Below, piece after piece: positions 2,777 to 34,470 of a stretch of 35,671 bases of DNA; positions within the stretch are counted from its first letter, which is position 1, and every line of letters begins with the position of its first letter. Both the position numbers and the translations under genes were made by a program. The DNA comes from Clostridia bacterium (GTDB lineage: Bacteria; Bacillota; Clostridia; Oscillospirales; CAG-272): positions 1 to 35,671 of the forward strand of contig JAFXAC010000025.1 in NCBI GenBank assembly GCA_017522125.1, read 5' to 3'. Under the pieces are notes generated by a model, which searched no databases, was not told where the DNA came from, and was given only the letters and a program-made list of their open reading frames with translations.

Positions 2777-3970
2777 ATGGAAAACAAAAAAATGCGTACT
2801 CTTTTTACCTCCGAGTCGGTAACGGAGGGACATCCCGATAAGATCTGCGACAAGATCTCCGACGCCGTGCTTGACAATCTGCTTGCGCAGGACCCCGAGT
2901 CCCGCGTTGCCTGCGAGGTCTGCTGTACCACGGGACTTATTCAGATAATGGGCGAGATCACGACCAAGGGCTATGCTGATTTTCAGACCATCGCCCGTGA
3001 GACCGTCCGTGAGATCGGATACGACAGGGCGAAATTCGGCTTTGACTGTGATAGCTGTGCGGTCATTTCCACTGTTCACGAGCAGTCGCCCGATATAGCT
3101 CTCGGCGTTGACCGTTCCCTTGAAGCCAAGGCGGGCGACATTACCGACGAGTACGATACGGGCGCGGGCGATCAGGGCATTATGTTCGGCTACGCTTGTA
3201 ACGAAACGCCCGAGCTTATGCCTCTGCCCATTTCTCTTGCTCACAAGCTGGCAAAAAGACTTACCGAGGTGCGCAAAAACGGTACTCTCGCATACCTTCG
3301 TCCCGACGGCAAAACGCAGGTCACGGTTGAGTACGAGGGCGATGCTCCCGTGCGCGTTGACACGGTGGTCGTGTCATCTCAGCATAGCGAAAGCGTAAGC
3401 CTTGAGCAGATACGCGAGGATATCATTCGCGAGGTAGTGCTTCCTATAATTCCCGCAGAGCTTATTGATGCGGATACCAAATATTACGTCAACCCCACGG
3501 GCAGATTCGTTATCGGCGGTCCTATGGGTGATAGCGGACTTACGGGTAGAAAGATAATCGTAGATACATACGGCGGATACGCACGCCACGGCGGCGGCGC
3601 TTTCTCGGGCAAGGACCCGACGAAGGTCGACCGTTCTGCCGCTTACGCCGCAAGATATCTTGCAAAGAACGTCGTAGCCGCAGGACTTGCCGCAAAGTGC
3701 GAGATACAGCTTGCCTACGCCATCGGCGTTGCACGCCCCGTGTCCGTGCTTGTTGACACGTTCGGTACTGCCAAGGTTTCCGAGGACGCTATCGCAAGCG
3801 CTCTTGACGAGCTGTTCGATCTGCGCCCCGCGGCGATCATTGCCCGCTTCGCGCTTCGCCGCCCGATCTATTGCGACCTTGCCGCTTACGGTCACATGGG
3901 TAGGGAGGACCTGGATATTCCGTGGGAAAAGACCGATCTCGTTGACGCTCTGCGTGCAAAGCTACTCTGA
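2777..3970 (+). CDS. metK: S-adenosylmethionine synthetase
   Basis: A 397-residue cytosolic enzyme making SAM from methionine and ATP with release of phosphate and diphosphate; the length is normal for the family. Visible signatures are [19 protein letters not shown] near the N-terminus (ATP and Mg-binding histidine and aspartate), [12 protein letters not shown] near residue 129 (methionine and ATP loop), and [19 protein letters not shown] near residue 270 (phosphate-binding loop). The start ATG has GAAAGGAAAG upstream. Expression is under the SAM-I riboswitch. No terminator follows, so the switch probably also affects the next three genes (small unknown, recD2, comFC). Confidence 0.99.
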
Positions 3971-23233: not shown

Positions 23234-23253
23234 TAAATCAATCAACTAAAAAA

Positions 23254-23297
23254 GCAGAGAGCATTTCGGGCGCACCGAAATGCTCTCTGCTTTCGTT
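23254..23297. terminator. Strong intrinsic terminator after the CofE-like gene
   Basis: A perfect 16-bp stem (23254-23269 with 23275-23290) on a GCGCA loop is followed by TTTCGTTT. An A-run on the 5' side means that it could also work for the - strand. Confidence 0.93.
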
Positions 23298-23715: not shown

Positions 23716-24153
23716 ATGATCCCCAATATTCCCATTACGGGAACTTATCGACACAATCTCGATTCGAAAAACAGAATATTCATTCCCGCAAAGCACCGTG
23801 ATGCGCTCGGCTCTCCTTTGGTAGTTTTTCCGAGTATCAGAGATAGATCACTCAAGGTGTATTCGGTCGAGGAGTGGCGTGCCTTCACCGAGAAGATAGA
23901 AACTATGGTCGCCAAGGAGCGCGAGCAGGTGCTGCGTTATTATAATGAAAACAGCGACACCCTCACGCCCGACGCGCAGGGAAGAATAGTGCTTAACCAA
24001 AATCTCGTTGACTACGCGGGGCTTACGGGCGGCGCAGTGATCGTCGGCTGCGGCAAGTACGCGGAGATTTGGTCGGTTGAGGAGCATGAAAAGCTCAAGG
24101 CAAGCACTAACGTGGACGATATCCGCGCCGCACTTGAAAGGCTCGGACTCTGA
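23716..24153 (+). CDS. mraZ: Division/cell wall cluster transcriptional repressor MraZ
   Basis: A 145-residue protein with two SpoVT-AbrB-like swapped-hairpin domains, each with the DxxxR signature: DSKNRIFIPAKHRDALG near residue 12 and DAQGRIVLNQNLVDYAGL near 85. It forms a ring that binds repeated TGG-type boxes and represses the division cluster. Three such boxes precede it. The ribosome-binding site GAAAGGAGAG is strong. Its stop codon overlaps the rsmH start by one base (TGATG), the usual arrangement. Confidence 0.97.
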   Translation: MIPNIPITGTYRHNLDSKNRIFIPAKHRDALGSPLVVFPSIRDRSLKVYSVEEWRAFTEKIETMVAKEREQVLRYYNENSDTLTPDAQGRIVLNQNLVDYAGLTGGAVIVGCGKYAEIWSVEEHEKLKASTNVDDIRAALERLGL

Positions 24154-25097
24154 TGAGCGCACCGCTTGAATTTTCGCATTTTTCGGTCATGCTCCCCGAG
24201 GTCATCGAGGGGCTTGACATAAAGCCTGACGGAATATATCTCGACGGCACGGCTGGCGGAGCAGGACATTCGTCCGTTATTGCCTCAAAGCTCACGACGG
24301 GAACGCTTATCGCGCTCGACCGTGATGCCGATGCGATAGCCGTCGCAACGGAGCGTCTTTCACAGTACGGAGAGCGTGCAAGAGTCGTCAGGGCTAACTT
24401 TGCCGATATGAAAAACGTCTGCCGCGAGCTTGGCATTGAAGCACTTGACGGCGTGCTTCTTGACCTCGGCGTGTCATCGTATCAGCTCGATACCGCGGAG
24501 CGCGGCTTCTCCTACCTTGCCGACGCACCGCTTGATATGAGAATGGACAAGCGTCAGGAGCTTGACGCTTATAAGATAGTAAACGGTTACAGCGAAGCGG
24601 AGCTTTGCCGTATACTCAGAAATTGGGGCGAGGAGAAATTCGCCTCGCGCATAGCTCGCAAGATTTGCGAAAGGCGCGAAAAAGCACCCGTAAGCACTAC
24701 GGGGGAGCTTGTTGATATAGTAAAGGCGGCACTCCCCGACGGAGGTCGCTCGCAAAAGCACCACCCCGCAATGCGCACGTTTCAGGCGATACGCATTGAG
24801 GTGAACGGTGAGCTTGATATAATTCCGCAAACGATAAAGGACGCCATATCTCTCCTGAGAACGGGCGGACGCCTTGCCATCATCACCTTCCACTCGCTTG
24901 AGGATAGGGCGGTGAAGGAGGCGTATACAACGCTTGCAAGCGGCTGTTCCTGCCCGCGCAATTTCCCCGTTTGCGTGTGCGGAAACAAGCCGAAGATAAA
25001 ATTCATCGGCAAAAAGCCGATACTCCCCTCGGACGAGGAGCTTGCTCAAAACAGCCGCTCTCACAGCGCAAAGCTGAGAGTGTGCGAGAAGCTATAA
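24153..25097 (+). CDS. rsmH: 16S rRNA (cytosine-1402-N4)-methyltransferase
   Basis: A 314-residue SAM-dependent enzyme (formerly MraW) methylating C1402 in the ribosomal P site. Motifs: HFSVMLPEVIEGL at the N-terminus, the SAM loop YLDGTAGGAGHSSVIASK near residue 28, LIALDRDADAI, GVLLDLGVSSYQLDTAERGF near 105, and GGRLAIITFHSLEDRAVK near 237. A pair of cysteines in CSCPRNFPVCVCG precedes the C-terminus, as is usual. It is translationally coupled to mraZ and followed by the FtsL-like gene after 38 bases. Confidence 0.98.
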   Translation: MSAPLEFSHFSVMLPEVIEGLDIKPDGIYLDGTAGGAGHSSVIASKLTTGTLIALDRDADAIAVATERLSQYGERARVVRANFADMKNVCRELGIEALDGVLLDLGVSSYQLDTAERGFSYLADAPLDMRMDKRQELDAYKIVNGYSEAELCRILRNWGEEKFASRIARKICERREKAPVSTTGELVDIVKAALPDGGRSQKHHPAMRTFQAIRIEVNGELDIIPQTIKDAISLLRTGGRLAIITFHSLEDRAVKEAYTTLASGCSCPRNFPVCVCGNKPKIKFIGKKPILPSDEELAQNSRSHSAKLRVCEKL

Positions 25098-25135
25098 AAC
25101 GTGTAGCCGACACGGTCGGCGGAAAGGACGCAGAA

Positions 25136-26059
25136 ATGAACGCAACTTACGGGACTAACAGAGCTGTAAACGACTTTGAATCCTATGAATATGCGCTCGC
25201 CGCATTAAAGGCACGCTATGCCAAGCGCGGAGTTGCAGGTGAGGCGCAGAGCGCCGTAGCCGAGCAGAAAATAAGGGAAGCTGCGTCTGTCAGAGAAAAT
25301 CCCGAGGCTTACCGCTACGGTGAGATAATGGAGCATGACCGCTACAACAGATATCGCACGGGTAACGGTGGCAACGTAATGACCGTTGACGACGTTCAGC
25401 GCATATATAAGGATGAAACGGGCAAGAGCGTGACCGCAGAGGTCCGCCGCGCCGCGCTCGCCGCCGGAAACGACTCGGACGCAAGACCCGCATCCCCCTA
25501 CCGCGTGCTTGAAAGCCGTCAGCCCGATGCCGCTAATTCCTCGGAATTCGTAGGAAAGACAGCCCTTGTCCAGAATGGCGGGTCTGAAACCGTTGCAAAG
25601 GTTGAATGCTCCGACGTATCTGCTTACAGACGCGTCGACGGCATAATCCGCAAGTGGTTTCCCGATAATAAGATAATAAAGGCAAAGGGCAGAAAAAGCA
25701 TCAACCCTCTGTCCGCAATTGCAATGAGCCTTATCTTTTGCATAGTTCTCGTTCTGCCCATCACCCTCAGCGTGATGCTTCACGAAACCTCAAGCGAGAT
25801 CGCCGAGCTTGGCGATGAGCTTCGCGAGATCGAAACTATTGCAGACGACCTTCAGGTCAAGCTCGATGACAAGAACGATCTTGCTCTTATCGAGGAGCTT
25901 GCAATAAATAAGTACGGTATGATAAAGCTCGAGGAGGGCAACTCCAAGTATCTTCGCCTTAACGGAATGGATACGATAGAAATCTTTGACGTCAACGGCG
26001 ACAACGACGTTATGCTTGCTCTGCTCAGTGCGCTCGGCATTCGCGCCTCGGACGAATAA
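25136..26059 (+). CDS. ftsL: FtsL-like septum protein with a long cytoplasmic extension
   Basis: A 307-residue bitopic protein in the normal ftsL slot between rsmH and spoVD. One membrane segment lies at about residues 192-215 (SAIAMSLIFCIVLVLPITL). It is followed by a coiled coil (SSEIAELGDELREIETIADD) and an FtsL/DivIC-type end (LAINKYGMIKLEEGNSKYL). FtsL helps assemble the FtsQLB complex that activates FtsW-PBP2. Usual FtsL is near 100-130 residues; here about 190 residues sit on the cytoplasmic side. That extension is polar, rich in Ala, Arg, Tyr and Glu, and of no family I know. ATG 25136 is chosen for GGAAAGGA; open frame further upstream only shadows rsmH. Identity rests mainly on topology and position. 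Confidence 0.72.
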   Translation: MNATYGTNRAVNDFESYEYALAALKARYAKRGVAGEAQSAVAEQKIREAASVRENPEAYRYGEIMEHDRYNRYRTGNGGNVMTVDDVQRIYKDETGKSVTAEVRRAALAAGNDSDARPASPYRVLESRQPDAANSSEFVGKTALVQNGGSETVAKVECSDVSAYRRVDGIIRKWFPDNKIIKAKGRKSINPLSAIAMSLIFCIVLVLPITLSVMLHETSSEIAELGDELREIETIADDLQVKLDDKNDLALIEELAINKYGMIKLEEGNSKYLRLNGMDTIEIFDVNGDNDVMLALLSALGIRASDE

Positions 26060-26076
26060 AAAAACGAGTTAAATAA

Positions 26077-26082
26077 TATAAT
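26077..26082 (+). promoter_or_regulatory. Possible -10 element ahead of the spoVD leader
   Basis: TATAAT at 26077-26082 is a perfect -10 placed about 15 bases before the structured leader. No good -35 is found 16-18 bases upstream, so promoter activity is uncertain. Confidence 0.35.
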
Positions 26083-26090
26083 CAATATGA

Positions 26091-26192
26091 CCTGAAGCCG
26101 CAGGGCGGCGACGGGCTGACATCGTGAACCAATCTAAGCTACGGGGCAGCCCCTATAAACAGCTTTCTCGGCGCAAGCCGTTGCTAATCTGG
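26091..26192 (+). ncRNA. Candidate structured RNA leader upstream of spoVD (unclassified)
   Basis: The 184-base gap between ftsL and spoVD contains a chain of stems: GCCGC 26097-26101 with GCGGC 26105-26109; GGGCTG 26113-26118 with CAGCCC 26147-26152, enclosing a possible CGTG 26123-26126/TACG 26140-26143 stem; and CGGC-GCAA-GCCG 26169-26180 with a GNRA loop, extended by AGC 26161-26163/GCT 26183-26185. CCA 26129-26131 and AGC 26137-26139 could also pair with TGG 26190-26192 and GCT 26183-26185, making a pseudoknot. A strong terminator follows. This is the layout of an aptamer plus expression platform, or of a small RNA. I do not recognise the class. Confidence 0.55.
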
Positions 26193-26229
26193 ATGGGACG
26201 TTGCATTCGTGCAGCGTCCCGTGCTTTTT
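26193..26229 (+). terminator. Intrinsic terminator/attenuator directly before spoVD
   Basis: A 13-bp stem (26193-26205 with 26210-26222, two G-U pairs) closes on a TTCG loop and is followed by GC and five Ts (26225-26229). The spoVD start codon is only 15 bases further on. Inside an essential cluster, such a terminator must be partial or regulated. Confidence 0.85.
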
Positions 26230-26243
26230 GAAAAGAGAGGATT

Positions 26244-28490
26244 ATGCGCAGAATAAAGATAAACACAGGACTTACGTTGCGCTCATATCTTGTTTTTGCG
26301 GTAATAATCGTAGGATTTATTGCCCTTGCGATCAGAGTTTTCTGTTTGCAGACGATAAATTTTGATTATTATCAAAAAAAGGTAGTGGATCAGCTTACCA
26401 CCGAATCCACTATAAGCTCGGAGCGCGGCAGTATATACGATGCAAGCGGTGAGGTTCTTGCTACCAACGTTACCTCTTACCGCATTTTTATTTCCCCATC
26501 GAGTATACAAAAGGCTATGCAGGACGGCAGGGCAGGACTTGATGAGTTCATCAGCCGTGGGCTTTGTGAGATTCTGGATACCGATTACGATACGGTTTAC
26601 GCCCTTACGCAAAAAAAGGGCAGCCTTGATGCAACGGTAATGCGTAATGCAGATGATGAGAGCGCCGACAAGGTGCTTGCGTTCATTGCCGATAATTCAC
26701 TTTCGAACGTTTTATACGTCGAGGCACAAAGCAAGAGATATTACAAGCACGGCGACCTTGCGACGCACGTTCTCGGCTTCACGGGCGCGGACGGCGGCGG
26801 TCTTTACGGACTTGAATATTACTATAATAAGGAGCTTTCGGGAATTCCCGGAAAGTATATCACGGCGCGCGATTCCTACGGAAACGAGATGCCGTACGAG
26901 TATCAGAGCTATATCGAGGCGGTGGACGGATACGATCTCCACACCACCATCGACATAAAGATACAGGCAATACTCGAGGAGCAGCTAAAGGCGGCGTTTG
27001 AGGAAGCGGCAGTACAGGCGGGTGTTTGCGGAATAGTAATGAACGTAAAAACGGGCGCGGTGCTGGGAATGGCGACCTACCCCGATTTTAACAACAACAG
27101 CGCGTGGACGCTGTCGGACTTCTATCAGGCTAAGCTCGACGCCTCGGGCTTTGATGCAAGCAGTAAGGAATATTCGAGCCTTAAGGCTTCTCTGCTTCAA
27201 AAAATGTGGCAGAACAAATCCATAACCGATACCTACATTCCGGGCTCGACGTTTAAGATAATAACCTCGGCTATGGGACTTGAAACGGGAGTCGTTTCAA
27301 CGGGCGAAAGCTTCACCTGTAAGGGCTCATACAAGGTAGCGGGCGAGATAATTCACTGTAATAAAACGCGCGGACACGGCCTTTTGACCTTTGCACAGGG
27401 CTTACAGCAGTCCTGCAACCCCATACTTATGACGGTGGGCGCCAGAGTCGGCACGGACACCTTCTATCAATACGTCAAGAGCTTCGGTTATCTTGAGCGC
27501 ACGGGAATAGACCTTCCGGGCGAAGCGCGCGGAATATTCTATGACGAAAAAAGCTTTGGCATAGTCGACCTTGCCGTTTCTTCCTTCGGTCAGAACTTCA
27601 AGGTCAACGTTATTCAGCATCTTACCGCAATATCCGCTATAGCAAACGGCGGCAAGCTTGTCACTCCGTATCTTCTCGACTCGATGACGGATGCAGACGG
27701 AAAGACTGTTTGGGAGCACGGAGTCAGCGTGCGCCGTCAGGTAGTAAGCTCCTCGGTGTGCGAAACTCTTGCCTCCGTTCTTGAGGAAGGCGTTTCGGGC
27801 AACGGCGGCTCAAAAAATGCGTACGTTGCGGGTTATCGCGTAGCGGCAAAAACGGGAACGTCCGAGAAGATAGGTGACAACAAGGACATGAGAATATGCT
27901 CCTGCGTTGCATTTGCGCCTGCCGATGACCCCGAAATTGCTATGATAATCGTTGCCGACGAGCCTACGGCGGGAACTCTGTACGGCGGCGTTGTAGCCGC
28001 GCCTTACGTGGCAAATTGCCTTGAGCAGATGCTTCCTTACCTCGGAGTCGAGGCGGTGTATACCGATGAGGAAGCGGCAAAGTTTGAGGTGGAGATCCCC
28101 GATTTTGCGGGTGAGGTTTCGTATACCGCACAGTCAAAGCTCAGCAAGCTCGGACTTGATTGCGAGATAGTCGGCGTAGGAACGATAGTTACCGCGCAGG
28201 TTCCCGCGGCAGGCACGATGCTTGGCAAGGATACGGGAAAGGTCATTCTCTACGTAGGAGATACCGCGCCCGTGGAAAATATAAGAGTCCCCGACGTTGT
28301 CGGAATGTCGGCAAGTGCCGCCAACAAGGTGCTTATCAACGCGGGACTGAATATAAGCGTAAAGGGCTCGCAAAACCATGGAACAGGTGCAGGACCTGAG
28401 GTTATCGAGCAATTCCCCGCGGCGGGAACAGTCGTGGGCAAGGGAGACGTCGTAACGGTCACGTTCCGATATCTCGACATAACGGATTAA
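26244..28490 (+). CDS. spoVD: Class B penicillin-binding protein (SpoVD/PBP2B type) with two PASTA domains
   Basis: A 748-residue membrane-anchored transpeptidase that cross-links septal or spore peptidoglycan together with FtsW/SpoVE. There is one N-terminal membrane segment (SYLVFAVIIVGFIALAIRVF). The dimerisation domain begins with SERGSIYDASGEVLATN. The transpeptidase motifs are STFK (Ser335, Lys338), SCN (Ser390, Asn392) and KTGTSE (Lys536). Two PASTA domains follow, from about 615 (EIPDFAGEVSYTAQSKL) and 683 (RVPDVVGMSASAANKVL). The ribosome-binding site AGAGAGG lies right after the terminator. Division PBP2B and sporulation SpoVD cannot be separated by sequence here; its place in the dcw cluster and lack of a second copy nearby leave both open. 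Confidence 0.94.
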   Translation: MRRIKINTGLTLRSYLVFAVIIVGFIALAIRVFCLQTINFDYYQKKVVDQLTTESTISSERGSIYDASGEVLATNVTSYRIFISPSSIQKAMQDGRAGLDEFISRGLCEILDTDYDTVYALTQKKGSLDATVMRNADDESADKVLAFIADNSLSNVLYVEAQSKRYYKHGDLATHVLGFTGADGGGLYGLEYYYNKELSGIPGKYITARDSYGNEMPYEYQSYIEAVDGYDLHTTIDIKIQAILEEQLKAAFEEAAVQAGVCGIVMNVKTGAVLGMATYPDFNNNSAWTLSDFYQAKLDASGFDASSKEYSSLKASLLQKMWQNKSITDTYIPGSTFKIITSAMGLETGVVSTGESFTCKGSYKVAGEIIHCNKTRGHGLLTFAQGLQQSCNPILMTVGARVGTDTFYQYVKSFGYLERTGIDLPGEARGIFYDEKSFGIVDLAVSSFGQNFKVNVIQHLTAISAIANGGKLVTPYLLDSMTDADGKTVWEHGVSVRRQVVSSSVCETLASVLEEGVSGNGGSKNAYVAGYRVAAKTGTSEKIGDNKDMRICSCVAFAPADDPEIAMIIVADEPTAGTLYGGVVAAPYVANCLEQMLPYLGVEAVYTDEEAAKFEVEIPDFAGEVSYTAQSKLSKLGLDCEIVGVGTIVTAQVPAAGTMLGKDTGKVILYVGDTAPVENIRVPDVVGMSASAANKVLINAGLNISVKGSQNHGTGAGPEVIEQFPAAGTVVGKGDVVTVTFRYLDITD

Positions 28491-28501
28491 CGTTTATCCC
28501 T

Positions 28502-28579
28502 GACCTCGTCGGGTGCGCGTGAATTGTTGTTCGTGTGCATTCGAGGCCGTGTTATAATAAGCCGCCACCCGACGAGGTT
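28502..28579. repeat. 13-bp perfect inverted repeat flanking a 50-bp promoter-bearing segment
   Basis: ACCTCGTCGGGTG 28503-28515 and CACCCGACGAGGT 28566-28578 are exact inverse copies, with an added G-T pair at 28502/28579. The 50 bases between hold a possible wobble-rich stem (28516-28521 with 28532-28537) and an extended -10, TGTTATAAT 28550-28558. As RNA this is a closed multi-stem domain; as DNA it has the form of an invertible promoter. There is no T-run after the outer stem, so it is not a plain terminator. Confidence 0.7.
28550..28558 (+). promoter_or_regulatory. Extended -10 promoter element for murF
   Basis: TGTTATAAT contains TG-n-TATAAT. The -35 position (28530-28535, TTCGTG) is weak, which extended -10 promoters tolerate. 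It lies inside the inverted-repeat segment, about 90 bases ahead of murF. Confidence 0.5.
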
Positions 28580-28590
28580 CGTCCTTTTCA

Positions 28591-28613
28591 GCGCTTCACC
28601 CCCTTAGAAGCGT
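28591..28613 (+). promoter_or_regulatory. Second hairpin in the murF leader
   Basis: CGCTTC 28592-28597 pairs with GAAGCG 28607-28612 (plus a G-T pair at 28591/28613) around a 9-base pyrimidine-rich loop ACCCCCTTA. The C-rich loop could pair with G-rich sequence or bind a protein. It lies between the inverted repeat and the murF ribosome-binding site GAAAGGA. Confidence 0.45.
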
Positions 28614-28647
28614 GTGATGTTCGGAGATTTGAAAGGAAAAATATAAA

Positions 28648-30069
28648 ATGAAGGTCAGTTTCGGCAATAAGCCCTTGAAGATATCACAAATAGCCGAAAT
28701 GTGCGCGGGAAGTCTTTATAAGGACTTCGGCGGCGACAAAGAGATTGAGTATATTTGTACCGATTCACGGGAGGCAGAGAAGAGCTGCCTTTTCCTTGCT
28801 ATAAGAGGAGAAACGGTTGACGGACATAATTATATAAATAAGGCGGCAGAGCTTGGCGCGGCGTGTGCCATAGCGGAGCATACGGTCGATGGGGTGGAAA
28901 TCCCGCTTATAATCGTCGACGACACCCTTACGGCGCTTGCGGCGCTTTCCACAGCGTACGCCAAGGCGTATCAGGGCGGCATCAGAAAGGTTGCCGTTAC
29001 GGGAAGCGTGGGCAAGACCACGGCAAAGGAAATGATAGCGTCCGTGCTTGGCGCGGGACACAAGGTATACAAAAGCGGTGGAAATTATAACAGCACCATC
29101 GGTATGCCGCTGTCACAGCTTGAAATTGCGCCCGACACGGAGTTTGCCGTGCTTGAAATGGGTATGTCGCAGGCAGGCGAGATATCAATTATGTCGCGCT
29201 GTGCGCGCCCCGACGTTGCCGTTATAACGAACGTTGGAAATTCACATATTGAATTTTTTGATTCACGCGCAGGTATAGCCTCGGCAAAGCTTGAGGTTAT
29301 GGAGGGACTCTCCAAGGACGGTCTGCTGTTGCTTTGCGGCGGCGAGCCGCTTCTTTCCGAGGTCGGCTCGTGGAACAGCAGAGTTAAGTATTATTCCGTA
29401 TGCGGCGACGATGATATCCACGCCGAAAACGTTTTTACCGTGGGCGGCAAAACGGTGTTTGATGCCGTAGTGTGCGGCACGAGAATAAACGGACTTGAGC
29501 TTTTTGCCATAGGCAAGCACAACGTTCACGCGGCGCTTTCCGCCGTAGCCGTAGCGTTGCATTTTGGCATCTGCGAGGCTGATATTCGCAAGGGACTTCT
29601 TGATTACCGCACGGTCGGAATGCGCCAGCAGATACTTGAGGTCGGCGGCGTTACGCTGATAAATGATTGCTATAACGCAAGTCCCGAATCAATGCGTGCG
29701 GCGTCGGAGGTGCTTTCGACTCTTGCCGCCGAAAAGGGCGGAAGAAAGATAGCTCTTCTCGGTGATATGCTGGAGCTTGGCGATTTTTCCGATGAGCTGC
29801 ACTATTCACTCGGTGAACATTTCGGCGCGATGGGCGTGCGCTTGTTCACATTCGGCGAGAGCGCCGAGCGCATAGCCGACGGTGCGGCAAAGCATCTTAA
29901 TAGCGATATGATAACTCGCTCTCGTACCACCACCGACGAGGACGCGGCGAGGATAGCCGCGCTTATAGCAAAGGAAGCGTCGGCGGGCGACTGCGTGCTT
30001 ATAAAGGCGAGCAGAAGAATAGCGGCAGAGCGTGTAAGCGCCGCGCTGACGGATATTTTAGGCAAATAA
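28648..30069 (+). CDS. murF: UDP-MurNAc-tripeptide:D-Ala-D-Ala ligase
   Basis: A 473-residue Mur ligase that adds D-Ala-D-Ala to UDP-MurNAc-tripeptide in the cytosol. N-terminal substrate domain: CTDSREAEKSCLFLAIRGE followed by DGHNYINKAAELGA. The ATP loop is VAVTGSVGKTTAKEMIASVL near residue 115, then GNYNSTIGMPLSQL, EMGMSQAGEI, VITNVGNSHIEFF, and in the C-terminal domain INDCYNASPESMRAA and LGDMLELGD, both typical of MurF. In many Firmicutes murE lies between spoVD and murF; here there is no murE. RBS GAAAGGA. Confidence 0.97.
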   Translation: MKVSFGNKPLKISQIAEMCAGSLYKDFGGDKEIEYICTDSREAEKSCLFLAIRGETVDGHNYINKAAELGAACAIAEHTVDGVEIPLIIVDDTLTALAALSTAYAKAYQGGIRKVAVTGSVGKTTAKEMIASVLGAGHKVYKSGGNYNSTIGMPLSQLEIAPDTEFAVLEMGMSQAGEISIMSRCARPDVAVITNVGNSHIEFFDSRAGIASAKLEVMEGLSKDGLLLLCGGEPLLSEVGSWNSRVKYYSVCGDDDIHAENVFTVGGKTVFDAVVCGTRINGLELFAIGKHNVHAALSAVAVALHFGICEADIRKGLLDYRTVGMRQQILEVGGVTLINDCYNASPESMRAASEVLSTLAAEKGGRKIALLGDMLELGDFSDELHYSLGEHFGAMGVRLFTFGESAERIADGAAKHLNSDMITRSRTTTDEDAARIAALIAKEASAGDCVLIKASRRIAAERVSAALTDILGK

Positions 30070-30090
30070 AGCAAAGGAGAAGAAAAGACA

Positions 30091-31086
30091 ATGAAGACGC
30101 GTATGCTGATTGAGTTTTTTTCAGTTGTTCTGGGAGTTTTCTTCGCCACTTGGTTTATTTTACGAAAGCTTATTCCCGTGCTTAAGAGCCGCAAGATAGG
30201 ACAGAAGATATACGATATAGGTCCTCGCTGGCACAAGGGCAAGGAGGGCACGCCTATTATGGGCGGACTCGGCTTTATCATCTCGTCCGTAATTGCCTTT
30301 GCGGTGCTTTTTGCAGTTTACGTTTACTACGGCAGGGCAGAGGAGCTTTACTCCGCCGCGCTGACGCTTATAATGGCGTTGCTAAACGCCCTTATCGGCT
30401 TTTTCGACGATTATACTAAGCTCATCAAAAAGCAAAACCAAGGCTTCAAGGCTTGGCAGAAATTCCTTCTCCAGCTTATCGTAGCGGCGGCGTACATTTG
30501 GGCTATGAGTGCTTGCGGATTTATGAATACCGCACTTTATATCCCATATTTCGGGCTCACCCTTGAGCTTGGTGTGGCATACTACCTGCTTGCAGTATTT
30601 CTCCTTACGGGAATGGTCAACGCAGTAAACCTTACCGACGGCATCGACGGTCTTTCGAGCAGCGTTACCGCCGTCGTAGCGGTGTTCTTCTCCGTGTGTG
30701 CGTTTCATTTTGTCCGCCCCGAGCTTGCGGTCCTTCCCGCAACCGTCGTTGGCGGCACCGTAGGATTTCTTATGTATAATTTCTACCCCGCAAAGATATT
30801 TATGGGCGACACGGGCTCGCTCTATCTTGGCGGAATGGTAGTCGGAATGGCATTTATGCTTGGCAACCCTCTTATTATCGTGGTCGCAGGACTTATCTAC
30901 ATCGTCGAGGTAGCGTCTGACATTCTTCAGGTCGCCTATTTCAAGGTAAGCCACGGCAAGCGCATCTTCAAGATGGCACCCATTCATCACCACTTTGAAA
31001 AGTGCGGTTGGAGCGAGGTCAAGATAGTTTTAGTATTTACCGCAGTAACGATAGTTACTTGCATAGCGGCATTTTTCGGTATTTAA
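30091..31086 (+). CDS. mraY: Phospho-MurNAc-pentapeptide translocase
   Basis: A 331-residue integral membrane enzyme with about ten segments. It transfers phospho-MurNAc-pentapeptide from UDP to undecaprenyl phosphate, forming lipid I. Motifs: GTPIMGGLGF near residue 52, the Asp-Asp pair in IGFFDDYTKLIKKQNQG near 108, NAVNLTDGIDGLSSS near 178, FMGDTGSLYLGGM near 233, and the HHH loop MAPIHHHFEKCGWSEVKIV near the C-terminus. AAAGGAG precedes the ATG. It is 21 bases after murF and 33 before ftsW. Confidence 0.98.
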   Translation: MKTRMLIEFFSVVLGVFFATWFILRKLIPVLKSRKIGQKIYDIGPRWHKGKEGTPIMGGLGFIISSVIAFAVLFAVYVYYGRAEELYSAALTLIMALLNALIGFFDDYTKLIKKQNQGFKAWQKFLLQLIVAAAYIWAMSACGFMNTALYIPYFGLTLELGVAYYLLAVFLLTGMVNAVNLTDGIDGLSSSVTAVVAVFFSVCAFHFVRPELAVLPATVVGGTVGFLMYNFYPAKIFMGDTGSLYLGGMVVGMAFMLGNPLIIVVAGLIYIVEVASDILQVAYFKVSHGKRIFKMAPIHHHFEKCGWSEVKIVLVFTAVTIVTCIAAFFGI

Positions 31087-31119
31087 GCGTAACAAAACCC
31101 AAGGAGGCGTCGTGTAGGT

Positions 31120-32340
31120 ATGGCAAACAAGATAATAGAATTTATGCGACGCAAAAAGGGCGGCAACAAGCTGCTTAGCGACTACACGCATCAGGAAATA
31201 CCTACCGAAAGCGGAAGCGTGCTGATGGTGCGCACTCGTCCTGATACGGTATTTTTGGTTCTTACGCTGATACTTATTCTCATCGGAACGGTAATGTCCT
31301 TCAGCGCAAGTACTGCGTACGCGGAGCAAAAGTACGGAAATAGCTTTTTGTTCCTTACCGAGCATCTCGGTCATCTACTTATAGCGTTCGTTCCCGCAGT
31401 TCTCATAACGTTTATATTAACGCCACAGCTTGCAAGGCTTTTGGCAGTCGGCACATACGGTGTTTCAATACTACTGCTTATAGCGGTGCTTATTATCGGA
31501 ATCACGGGCGGCGGTGCGCGCCGTTGGATAGACCTCGGCTTTTTTACCTTCCAACCGTCCGAGCTTGCCAAAACGGGAATAATAATGCTGCTTGCGCTTT
31601 ATATGTCAAAGCACGAGGACGCGGTTATGAGTCGGGGCTTCAACCGACGCTCGATAGTACACGGCTTCATCGTACCCGCCCTTATAATCGGACTTGTTTG
31701 CGTGCTTGTTGGACTTGAAAAGCACTTTTCGGGAATCATCATCATCGGATGCATCGGCGTTGCGATGATGTTTATAGGCGGAACTAATATTCTTTATTTT
31801 CTATCGTGTCTTCCCGTAGCGGGCATACTTGGCTTTCTTATTATGCAAACGGGATATGCGCGTGCCAGAGTTGACAGCTGGCTCAACAGAGGTGCAGATG
31901 CACTCGGAAGCGACTGGCAGACCACCCAAGGTCTTTACGCCATCGGTACGGGCGGACTTTTCGGACTCGGGCTTGGGCAGTCAAGGCTTAAATACGGTTA
32001 CGTTTCACAGCCGCAAAACGACTTCGTTTTCACGGTAGTGTGCGAGGAACTGGGCTTTTTTGGAGCTGCGGCTATCCTCATTCTTTTCCTTGCACTTGTG
32101 TGGCGGGGCTTCATTCTCGCGGCGCACGCGGCGGATAAATTCTGCTCCCTCGTTATTTTTGGCTTGTCCTTCAAGCTTGCCATTCACGTTCTTCTTAACA
32201 TCGGCGTAGTAACGGGCGTGCTTCCCAACACGGGCGTTGCACTTCCTTTCTTCAGTAGCGGCGGAAGTGCTACCCTGATACAGCTTTTTGACGCAGGAAT
32301 CATACTTGGACTTTCTCGTTTCTGTACGCAGAAACGGTAA
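31120..32340 (+). CDS. ftsW: SEDS peptidoglycan polymerase FtsW/SpoVE
   Basis: A 406-residue SEDS-family glycosyltransferase that polymerises lipid II at the septum with a partner class B PBP, here probably SpoVD. After a 45-residue cytoplasmic start come about ten membrane segments. SEDS motifs: GARRWIDLGFFTFQPSELAK near residue 130, YALGTGG-like YAIGTGGLFGLGLGQS, then YVSQPQNDFVFTVVCEELGF (with the essential Glu/Asp loop), and GVLPNTGVALPFFSSGGSA near the C-terminus. AAGGAGG lies 11 bases before ATG, slightly far. FtsW and SpoVE cannot be separated by sequence alone. Confidence 0.95.
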   Translation: MANKIIEFMRRKKGGNKLLSDYTHQEIPTESGSVLMVRTRPDTVFLVLTLILILIGTVMSFSASTAYAEQKYGNSFLFLTEHLGHLLIAFVPAVLITFILTPQLARLLAVGTYGVSILLLIAVLIIGITGGGARRWIDLGFFTFQPSELAKTGIIMLLALYMSKHEDAVMSRGFNRRSIVHGFIVPALIIGLVCVLVGLEKHFSGIIIIGCIGVAMMFIGGTNILYFLSCLPVAGILGFLIMQTGYARARVDSWLNRGADALGSDWQTTQGLYAIGTGGLFGLGLGQSRLKYGYVSQPQNDFVFTVVCEELGFFGAAAILILFLALVWRGFILAAHAADKFCSLVIFGLSFKLAIHVLLNIGVVTGVLPNTGVALPFFSSGGSATLIQLFDAGIILGLSRFCTQKR

Positions 32341-32355
32341 ATCGGCGGAGAAATT

Positions 32356-33486
32356 ATGAGAATATTGATGACGGGCGGTGGCACGGGAGGTCACATTAAT
32401 CCTGCCCTTGCTATTGCAAACACGATAAAAGAGAATATACCCGATGCCGAGATAGCCTTCGCGGGAACGAAGCGCGGACTTGAAAACAGCCTCGTCCCCA
32501 AGGCGGGATATCCGCTGTATCATCTTAACGTGCGCGGCTTCTGGCGAAGGATCACTTGGAAAAATATAAAGGTAGCGTATCTTGCGCTCGTTTCACCGAT
32601 ATACGCGGGAAAGCTTATTCGCCGCTTCAAGCCCGACGCCGTTATAGGCACGGGCGGATATGCCTGCTGGCCCGTGCTGATAGCGGCGGCAAGGCGTGGA
32701 ATACCTACGGCGGTGCATGAGTCAAATGCAGTTCCGGGGCTTGCCGTGCGTAAGCTTGCACCCCACGTTGACAGAATATTCGTTAATTTTTCTGCCGTGG
32801 CAGACCACATAGACTATCCCGAAAAGATCATGCGCGTCGGTTGTCCGATGCTTAATATGAGTAAGCCCATAAGCCGCACTGAGGCTCGCACAAGGCTTGA
32901 TATCCCACAGGATTGCAAGCATTACGTCCTATCCTTTGGCGGCAGCCTTGGGGCGGCACGAATGAACGAGGCGGCGCTTGAGCTTACGCGCGACCTTATT
33001 TCGCGCCGTAAGGACGTTATGCTGATACACGCCTGCGGCTCGCTCGGCTATGAGAAAACTCGCGATGCGTTTGAACGGGCAGGGCTTCTTGACCTTCCGA
33101 ATCTTCGTCTTGTGGAGTATATATACGATATGCCAATTCAAATGGCGGCGGCGGACGTGGTTATATGCAGGGCGGGCGCGATGACGCTCTCCGAGCTTGC
33201 AAATCAAGGTAAGGCGGCAGTTCTTATCCCCTCGCCAAACGTTACGGACGATCAGCAGTATAAAAATGCCAAGGTCTTTTCCGACGCAGGCGCGGCAGTT
33301 CTCATACGGGAATCCGAGCTTGAGGAGGGCAGAATAGCCAAGGAGATAGAGCGCTTAATATGCGAGCCAAATCGGCTTGATGAAATGCGGCGTAATATAA
33401 AGGCGTTTGCCGCAAAGGATGCGAACGCTCTTATCTTCGACGAGATAATGCGACTTATCAATGAAAGAGAGGTTGCAAAAAAATAA
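32356..33486 (+). CDS. murG: UDP-GlcNAc:lipid I N-acetylglucosaminyltransferase
   Basis: A 376-residue GT-B enzyme that makes lipid II from lipid I on the inner face of the membrane. It starts with MTGGGTGGHINPALAIAN (first glycine loop). Further signatures are VIGTGGYACWPVLIAA, HESNAVPGLAVR, LSFGGSLGAARMNEAAL (second glycine loop), CRAGAMTLSELANQGKAAVL with the UDP-GlcNAc-binding Glu, and VTDDQQYKNAKVFSDAGAA near the C-terminus. RBS GGCGGAGA. The stop codon is directly followed by the ftsQ ATG. Confidence 0.98.
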   Translation: MRILMTGGGTGGHINPALAIANTIKENIPDAEIAFAGTKRGLENSLVPKAGYPLYHLNVRGFWRRITWKNIKVAYLALVSPIYAGKLIRRFKPDAVIGTGGYACWPVLIAAARRGIPTAVHESNAVPGLAVRKLAPHVDRIFVNFSAVADHIDYPEKIMRVGCPMLNMSKPISRTEARTRLDIPQDCKHYVLSFGGSLGAARMNEAALELTRDLISRRKDVMLIHACGSLGYEKTRDAFERAGLLDLPNLRLVEYIYDMPIQMAAADVVICRAGAMTLSELANQGKAAVLIPSPNVTDDQQYKNAKVFSDAGAAVLIRESELEEGRIAKEIERLICEPNRLDEMRRNIKAFAAKDANALIFDEIMRLINEREVAKK

Positions 33487-34470
33487 ATGTCTGAGGATAA
33501 TAAAAAAACAGGAATAGAAAACGCCCCACAGACCGAAGGCGAAAAGCCGAGGTACGTAAGGCAGTACGTTATGCGCAAGCGACACAAGCGGACGTATGAG
33601 GAATCAAGGCCCGAGCCCGTTTTTACTCAGCCCGAGGTCATTAAAAAAACGGCAAACAAGGAAGAGCAGATAGTCAAGGAGCTTGCAGAAAAGCAAAAAA
33701 AGCAGAAGGCAAAAAAACTGCTGTTCCTATGCATAATAGCCTTTATCCTCGTGCTGCTCTATCCGCTTTTCAGGCTCGTTACAAACGTTTTCGTTATAAA
33801 AGAGGTAGTTATCGAGGGCGAGAGCCGATACAGCGCAGAGGAGCTTTTAGCGGCTTCGGGGCTTGCTCTTGGCGATGACCTTTTTGGAACTGATTACGAC
33901 GAGGCGGCAAGGCTTGCTCTTGCAAAGCTTCCGTATCTCAGGACGTGTCGGGTGGAGTCGAAATTACCCAACAAAGTAGTTTTCACCGTTGTTTCGGGAG
34001 AGGCTGCTATTTATACCGAGGTAGCGGGTGAATATTACGCCCTTTCAGCCGCGTTGCGCGTGCTTGAAAGAAGCAGCGAGCCGTCAACGTTTATAGCAAG
34101 CGGTCTTGTATATGCGTCCCTGCCGCCTACCGCGGTAAGTCTGGTCGGTGAGCATATAAAGCTTTCGGGCGGAGTTGACAGCTCATATATAACCGAATTT
34201 CTTGACGTTCTCGCCGAGTCGCCTATGAACGGACGAGCCAGCAGGATGTTTTTTGAGGAAAAGTTCGACATGGTGATAAGCGTTGACGCGCGGTTCCGCA
34301 TAAAGCTCGGCTCTCCCGACTCGATGAAGCTAAAGCTTCACGCGGCGTCAAGAGTTATAGAGGAGTGCGGATTTACCCTTGAGGAAAAGGGAATTATCGA
34401 CGTAAGCGACCCCGAAAGACCTACGTCATTAAAAAAGAACGACGTCGATATAAACGCACGCCGTGACTAA
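33487..34470 (+). CDS. ftsQ: Cell division protein FtsQ/DivIB
   Basis: A 327-residue bitopic protein. The first 75 residues are highly charged and cytoplasmic (Lys, Glu and Gln rich). A membrane segment follows (LLFLCIIAFILVLLYPLF, about 77-95). The extracytoplasmic POTRA domain starts with FVIKEVVIEGESRYSAEELL and continues with YLRTCRVESKLPNKVVFTV, then the FtsQ domain. It works with FtsL and DivIC in controlling FtsW-PBP activity. The ATG follows the murG stop with no gap; GAGAGG about 12 bases upstream is the likely ribosome-binding site. No murA, murB or murC lies between murG and ftsQ. Confidence 0.92.
   Translation: MSEDNKKTGIENAPQTEGEKPRYVRQYVMRKRHKRTYEESRPEPVFTQPEVIKKTANKEEQIVKELAEKQKKQKAKKLLFLCIIAFILVLLYPLFRLVTNVFVIKEVVIEGESRYSAEELLAASGLALGDDLFGTDYDEAARLALAKLPYLRTCRVESKLPNKVVFTVVSGEAAIYTEVAGEYYALSAALRVLERSSEPSTFIASGLVYASLPPTAVSLVGEHIKLSGGVDSSYITEFLDVLAESPMNGRASRMFFEEKFDMVISVDARFRIKLGSPDSMKLKLHAASRVIEECGFTLEEKGIIDVSDPERPTSLKKNDVDINARRD

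Follow-up and report, generated by a model that had tools for sequence, protein, structure and literature searches.

A putative sigma-E-type promoter and a leader terminator before spoVD, and a predicted small RNA target site behind it, in a Clostridia division and wall cluster

A separate FtsI is missing from many Clostridia, and the sharing of the SpoVD/FtsW-type enzymes encoded in the dcw cluster between growth and sporulation is an open question (PMC10693644). At the locus analyzed here, the gap that separates spoVD from an ftsL-like gene contains several GC-rich stems and a terminator hairpin, which the first-pass annotation had interpreted as a structured leader that might sense a ligand. 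On the comparisons described below, this gap most likely marks where a sporulation transcript begins and is not a riboswitch.

The window, that is the whole stretch of DNA analyzed, comprises 35,671 nucleotides (contig C14 of a host assembly of 1.82 Mb in 99 contigs, 92% complete and evidently obtained from metagenomic reads). The cluster, with the features that we describe in it, lies on the forward strand in the order mraZ, rsmH, ftsL-like gene, SpoVD-type penicillin-binding protein (PBP) gene, murF, mraY, ftsW/spoVE, murG and divIB-like gene. The first three genes (23716-26059) form the vegetative head of the cluster. MraZ and RsmH matched the NCBIfam models TIGR00242 (5e-23) and TIGR00006 (1.5e-112), and the third frame, which ends with a TAA codon at 26057-26059, carries a weak DivIC/FtsB-type domain (E 2.5e-4, under the Pfam cut-off). 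The spoVD gene (26244-28490) encodes a class B PBP of 748 amino acids with a PASTA region, which scored 558.5 bits against TIGR02214, below the model cut-off of 688; its ATG codon at 26244 is preceded by the ribosome-binding site AGAGAGG (26234-26240). The genes murF to divIB, assigned with NCBIfam, occupy 28648-34470. The ftsL-spoVD gap of 184 nt is the largest within the mraZ-divIB cluster and the spoVD-murF gap of 157 nt the second largest, the remaining gaps being of 33 nt or less. Upstream of mraZ, this gut Clostridia genome encodes an F420-0:gamma-glutamyl ligase-like protein (PF01996, 22043-23233), followed by a 19-bp hairpin (AAAGCAGAGAGCATTTCGG..., 23251-23293) that is likely a terminator ahead of the mraZ promoter region.

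The promoter before spoVD and its link with sporulation genes

The sigma-E consensus of B. subtilis is KMATATT for the -35 element and CATACANT for the -10 element. A promoter scan with this consensus found GAATAAA at 26054-26060, overlapping the ftsL stop codon, and AATATAAT at 26075-26082, 14 nt after the -35 heptamer (GAATAAA-N14-AATATAAT, 26054-26082; score 17.5). The -35 element carries the ATA core of the KMATATT type, and the -10 element is of the CATACANT type at the fixed spacing, its first base being an A, not a C. In five sister species (L062, L063, L064, L065 and L003), GAATAAW-N14-AATAAAAT stands at the equal position and spacing.

The consensus was fixed before the scan, which covered the 250 nt before spoVD at 98 related junctions and every spacer from 8 to 21; CATA-like motifs had already been seen by eye in some of the gaps, the spacing had not. 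At the strict threshold, a spacer of 14 peaked at 41 of the 98 junctions versus 1.4 ± 1.3 expected from dinucleotide shuffles, with a single instance in the upstream coding DNA used as control. The next-highest spacers, 11 to 13, gave 11 to 16 junctions. These statistics establish the promoter architecture in the family. Furthermore, spoIIIAA, which is a classic sigma-E gene, is preceded in the genus by an N13-14 plus AATAnnnT promoter like that before spoVD. In C. difficile, it is the -35 element that distinguishes sigma-E promoters (ATA) from sigma-K promoters (AC), the -10 elements being alike (PMC3789822). Because the -35 element of the window has ATA, sigma-E is favored over sigma-K. A sigma-A promoter was also sought, and a sigma-70 scan found none in the gap. 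Transcription is predicted to start at about 26089-26091, and from the position of the promoter the 155 nt at 26089-26243 are predicted to be the 5′ untranslated leader of a spoVD transcript made in the mother cell during sporulation.

The distribution of the promoter ties it statistically to the sporulation sigma factors. A score of at least 16 was reached in 72 of the 83 genomes with sigma-E/K-type factors versus 5 of the 15 without (Fisher 4e-5, which overstates the association because the genomes are related). Within the genus, the promoter is present in 6/6 genomes with sporulation sigma factors and in 0/7 without. In most of these seven, ftsL runs into spoVD almost without a gap; since they form one clade in the tree, they represent one co-loss and not seven. 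This non-sporulating sister clade keeps spoVD, without the promoter. Such a promoter, tracking the sporulation sigma factors, would offer a direct sequence handle on the sharing of SpoVD and FtsW. The host encodes SigK, SigG, SpoIVA and SpoIIIAA. The sigma-E gene was not found in its 92%-complete assembly, and five sister species gave strong matches; when sigE was sought beside rpoD, the gene order of the host contig was different and the contig ended in a frame resembling ribosomal protein L19.

In B. subtilis, pbpB (ftsI) lies between ftsL and spoVD; the cluster of the window differs in having no second division PBP and in carrying a terminator inside the spoVD leader. It resembles the B. 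subtilis locus, where spoVD belongs to the sigma-E genes and is under SpoIIID repression (PMC517825, citing Zhang et al. 1997), in the mother-cell sigma-E-type promoter placed directly before spoVD in the dcw cluster and in the equal consensus spacing. It also resembles C. difficile in its dcw-encoded SpoVD adjoining an ftsL-like gene (PMC8417463, PMC10693644); the C. difficile protein is sporulation-specific, and many Clostridia lack the canonical FtsW/FtsI pair (PMC10693644). However, in C. difficile the promoter considered to serve spoVD precedes the ftsL-like gene (PMC8417463), whereas the promoter of the window lies between ftsL and spoVD and is followed by the leader terminator.

The terminator hairpin in the spoVD leader

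The hairpin ATGGGACGTTGCA-TTCG-TGCAGCGTCCCGT at 26193-26222 has 13 pairs, 7 of them G-C, closed by a UUCG loop. It is followed by GC and then by T5 at 26225-26229, so that a stable GC-rich hairpin stands two bases before U5, and the terminator scan recognized the whole (26193-26229) as an intrinsic terminator. Its folding energy of -24.2 kcal/mol was equaled by 0/200 shuffles (z -6.0). A strong terminator stands before the open reading frame in 38 of the 77 promoter-bearing leaders versus 3.2 expected in shuffles. Since about half of these leaders are without a strong one, the terminator is not essential to the arrangement; in the family leader scan, no strong U-tailed hairpin was found in the promoter-bearing genus members L003, L063 and L064.

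A different hairpin, GAGRGU...RCUCUC, lies between promoter and spoVD at 19 of the 98 junctions, in several other genera. It occurs about once per genome, most of the genomes tested have it at spoVD, and its stem is near-invariant in L085, L094, L100, L015, L105, L098 and other family junctions. We considered it as a family-wide RNA element and rejected it as such: only two pairs covary, Rfam gave no match, and the hairpin of the window is different.

Taken together, promoter and hairpin make it probable that the gap is a developmental switch at the DNA level that gates spoVD. In growing cells, polymerase coming from the mraZ promoter would mostly stop at the terminator (26193-26229), and spoVD would be kept low. 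In the mother cell, the sigma-E-type promoter (26054-26082) would start the sporulation transcript at about 26089 and, being strong, would give enough initiations for read-through of the terminator into spoVD. Vegetative transcription of mraZ-rsmH-ftsL would thus be reduced at the gap and spoVD re-started in sporulation, and ligand sensing would not be required. We infer here sigma-E dependence in this species, the strength of the terminator, partial read-through and the direction of the regulation; a sigma-E promoter overriding the terminator would be the simplest use of the arrangement. Several points count against this model: beside the sigma-E gene missing from the host assembly, the leaders with no strong terminator, the single co-loss and the promoter position in C. 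difficile, these are the A at the start of the -10 element and the location of the terminator, which lies 3′ of the promoter and would act alike on vegetative read-through and on sporulation transcripts, cutting the latter as well.

Other roles of the hairpin leave the promoter unchanged or use it otherwise. The hairpin might mainly stabilize the 5′ end of the spoVD mRNA or serve its processing by RNase, as would suit its location close to the ribosome-binding site and the strong hairpins with poor U-tracts in several sister leaders (L062 CCCGTCTGATTC, L064 CCCCGATTTCC). However, the hairpin of the window does have U5, and U-rich-tailed terminators are about ten times as frequent in the family as expected, which makes this role unlikely. 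An RNA of roughly 140 nt, bracketed exactly by the promoter (26054-26082) and the terminator end (26229), would result from the two and could act in trans, with spoVD expressed from rare read-through. The sequence of this RNA is, however, unconserved even in the genus and its body folds no better than shuffled sequence, and we regard such an RNA as improbable. Finally, the terminator could be a second target of the lon/infC small RNA described below, so that spoVD and its downstream genes would share one controlling sRNA. Within the terminator stands TGCATTCG, which is 8 nt of the sRNA target sequence (p 0.03), the L064 leader contains CGTTGTGC (p 0.01), and six leaders jointly gave p 0.027. 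This is very unlikely, as the 8-mers differ between the two genomes, the other four leaders gave no significant match, and the result would fail correction for the ways in which it could have been looked for.

The leader stems

The features named by the first-pass annotation (stems, GNRA loop, terminator hairpin and T5) are all present in the sequence. The three short GC-rich stems at 26091-26190 comprise GCCGC-AGG-GCGGC at about 26097-26109, GGGGCAGCCCC at about 26143-26153 and CGGC-GCAA-GCCG, with the GNRA loop, at about 26169-26180. Of the structured leader with a terminator that had been proposed, the terminator exceeds chance and the other stems do not. The 102 nt before the terminator (26089-26190) fold at the level of shuffled sequence (z -0.45; 67/200 shuffles as good), as do their parts (z -1.3 for 26089-26130 and -0.5 for 26131-26190), and the z of -2.43 for the whole ftsL-spoVD gap is due to the terminator, which carries it. 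Searches of the gap against Rfam returned chance-level scores only, even at E 10. No homologue of the leader DNA was found among 146 family genomes, and the short matches that we inspected look like chance. The stems are absent from the closest members of the genus; in the closest species, whose SpoVD is 68% identical, the sequence of the gap is unrelated to that of the window. Because of the shuffle-level folding, the lack of an Rfam match and the lack of homologues, we see no sign of a conserved structured leader. Two further candidates were rejected: a mobile repeat, as the host genome has only one copy of the gap sequence, and a 46-codon open frame at 26092-26234, which gave no Pfam match and lacks DNA homologues in relatives.

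A ligand-sensing riboswitch or protein-binding attenuator made by these stems is hardly credible and already largely refuted by the folding, Rfam and homology results, even though stems ahead of a terminator fit such a layout and riboswitches are present elsewhere in the window, both ordinary ones (FMN, 802-956, preceding an ECF transporter component at 970-1665; SAM, 2640-2726, preceding S-adenosylmethionine synthetase at 2777-3970). The locus shares with intrinsic-terminator attenuators the order promoter, leader, terminator, gene, but its leader has no conserved aptamer, leader peptide or anti-terminator. The first-pass proposal that spoVD is gated apart from mraZ-rsmH-ftsL fared better: this is apparently so, with the terminator located in the spoVD leader. 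The conserved gating signal, as judged from the junction scan, is the putative sigma-E-type promoter, which would act at the DNA level and had been missed. The ftsL-spoVD finding appears to resolve to a sigma-E-type promoter with a terminator in its leader.

A predicted small RNA between lon and infC and its putative target site behind spoVD

The spoVD-murF gap holds a hairpin at 28502-28579, made of a 14-bp stem (28502-28515 with 28566-28579) and a 50-nt loop, then CGTCCTTTTC; 0/200 shuffles were as good. The loop contains TGTGCATTCGAGGCC at 28534-28548, the exact antisense of the seed of a predicted sRNA encoded between lon and infC. The sRNA locus lies outside the window, at G000:C36:14284-14376 of the host, on the minus strand (L196). 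Its promoter in the host is TTTACA-17-TATAAT, and in the predicted RNA a 5′ hairpin is followed by GGCCUCGAAUGCACA and by a long stem that ends in U's (U6 in the host). A covariance model search found the sRNA in 13/13 genus genomes; overall, 57 of the 80 genomes that were searched have it, nearly always once, and in most of the 30 loci fetched it adjoins lon and/or infC. Across these 30 loci, 25 of the 29 pairs change on both sides (0/500 shuffles), and the covariation score of 0.458 compares with 0.182 after shuffling and 0.06-0.10 when the partner is slid; having been fitted to the model, the alignment leans towards it. The locus has thus the sigma-A-type promoter, terminator and covarying structure of a base-pairing sRNA, and no Rfam family matches it.

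The 15-mer TGTGCATTCGAGGCC occurs in exactly two copies in each of nine genus genomes, behind spoVD and between lon and infC, and in all nine the sRNA promoter is a close match to that of the host. In five sister species murE follows spoVD, and the site lies in murE codons for FVCIRG (four exact, the fifth with one change). No murE frame was recognized behind spoVD in the window or in seven relatives without sporulation sigma factors; in these eight genomes the site, or a one-base variant, lies in non-coding DNA, and in the window and 5/7 of the relatives it is in a significant hairpin. The stem sequences are unrelated between lineages, those of L021 and L067 being near-identical. In 12 of the 13 genus genomes, seed and site are perfectly antisense over 12-17 nt (eleven from the pairing analysis, G154 from its exact 15-mer); the exception, G153, pairs over 10 nt with mismatches. 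The duplex energies are about 4-8 s.d. below those of shuffled targets. In G065 and G155 (loci L200/L021 and L197/L067), the seed GGTCTCGAATGCACA is matched by the target TGTGCATTCGAGACC, a compensatory change (GGUC/GACC) that represents one event. The seed is complementary to a conserved target that has changed with it, and on these alignments the sRNA and its site are a well-supported conserved RNA-RNA pair. In other genera the sRNA is present with a different seed, for which no convincing site was found in the dcw region.

Its own promoter, its intrinsic terminator, its unpaired seed and the one conserved complementary mRNA site resemble those of trans-encoded antisense sRNAs. It is unlike the known ones in belonging to no Rfam family and in having its target in a hairpin loop in genomes whose spoVD is no longer followed by murE. 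The promoter-terminator result is less surprising than this sRNA with its site: the RNA family is recognized by no Rfam model and shows a compensatory change with its target. In the literature searched, no sRNA of this group is described as acting on the division and wall cluster; if the site behind spoVD is functional, this one would be such an sRNA.

We give an even chance to a wider reading in which spoVD is an insulated unit, with the sigma-E-type promoter and leader terminator upstream and a terminator-like hairpin downstream whose loop is the target. The new, family-wide and sigma-A-driven sRNA, by pairing through the 15-nt target with the loop, or in the sister species with early murE codons, would set the output of murE/murF, mraY, ftsW, murG and divIB. 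If so, sRNA supply would be linked to septal and spore wall synthesis.

Several minor features accompany the site. In the window, a stretch like the start of murE (TTGTTCGTGTGCATTCGAGGCC) remains as a hairpin at 28491-28647 without a murE frame, and an extended -10-like TGTTATAAT inside the hairpin loop (28549-28557) might serve murF and its downstream genes as a vegetative promoter. The target of G147 (L192/L066) is longer (AAAAAAGGTGACGTTTTGTGCATTCGAGGCCG, antisense over about 27 nt, small bulge included), with a second partial site, GCATTCGAGGCC, just upstream. In L070 (G146), an irregular tandem repeat of GATAAAAAAGGACAC...GACC units lies immediately 3′ of spoVD.
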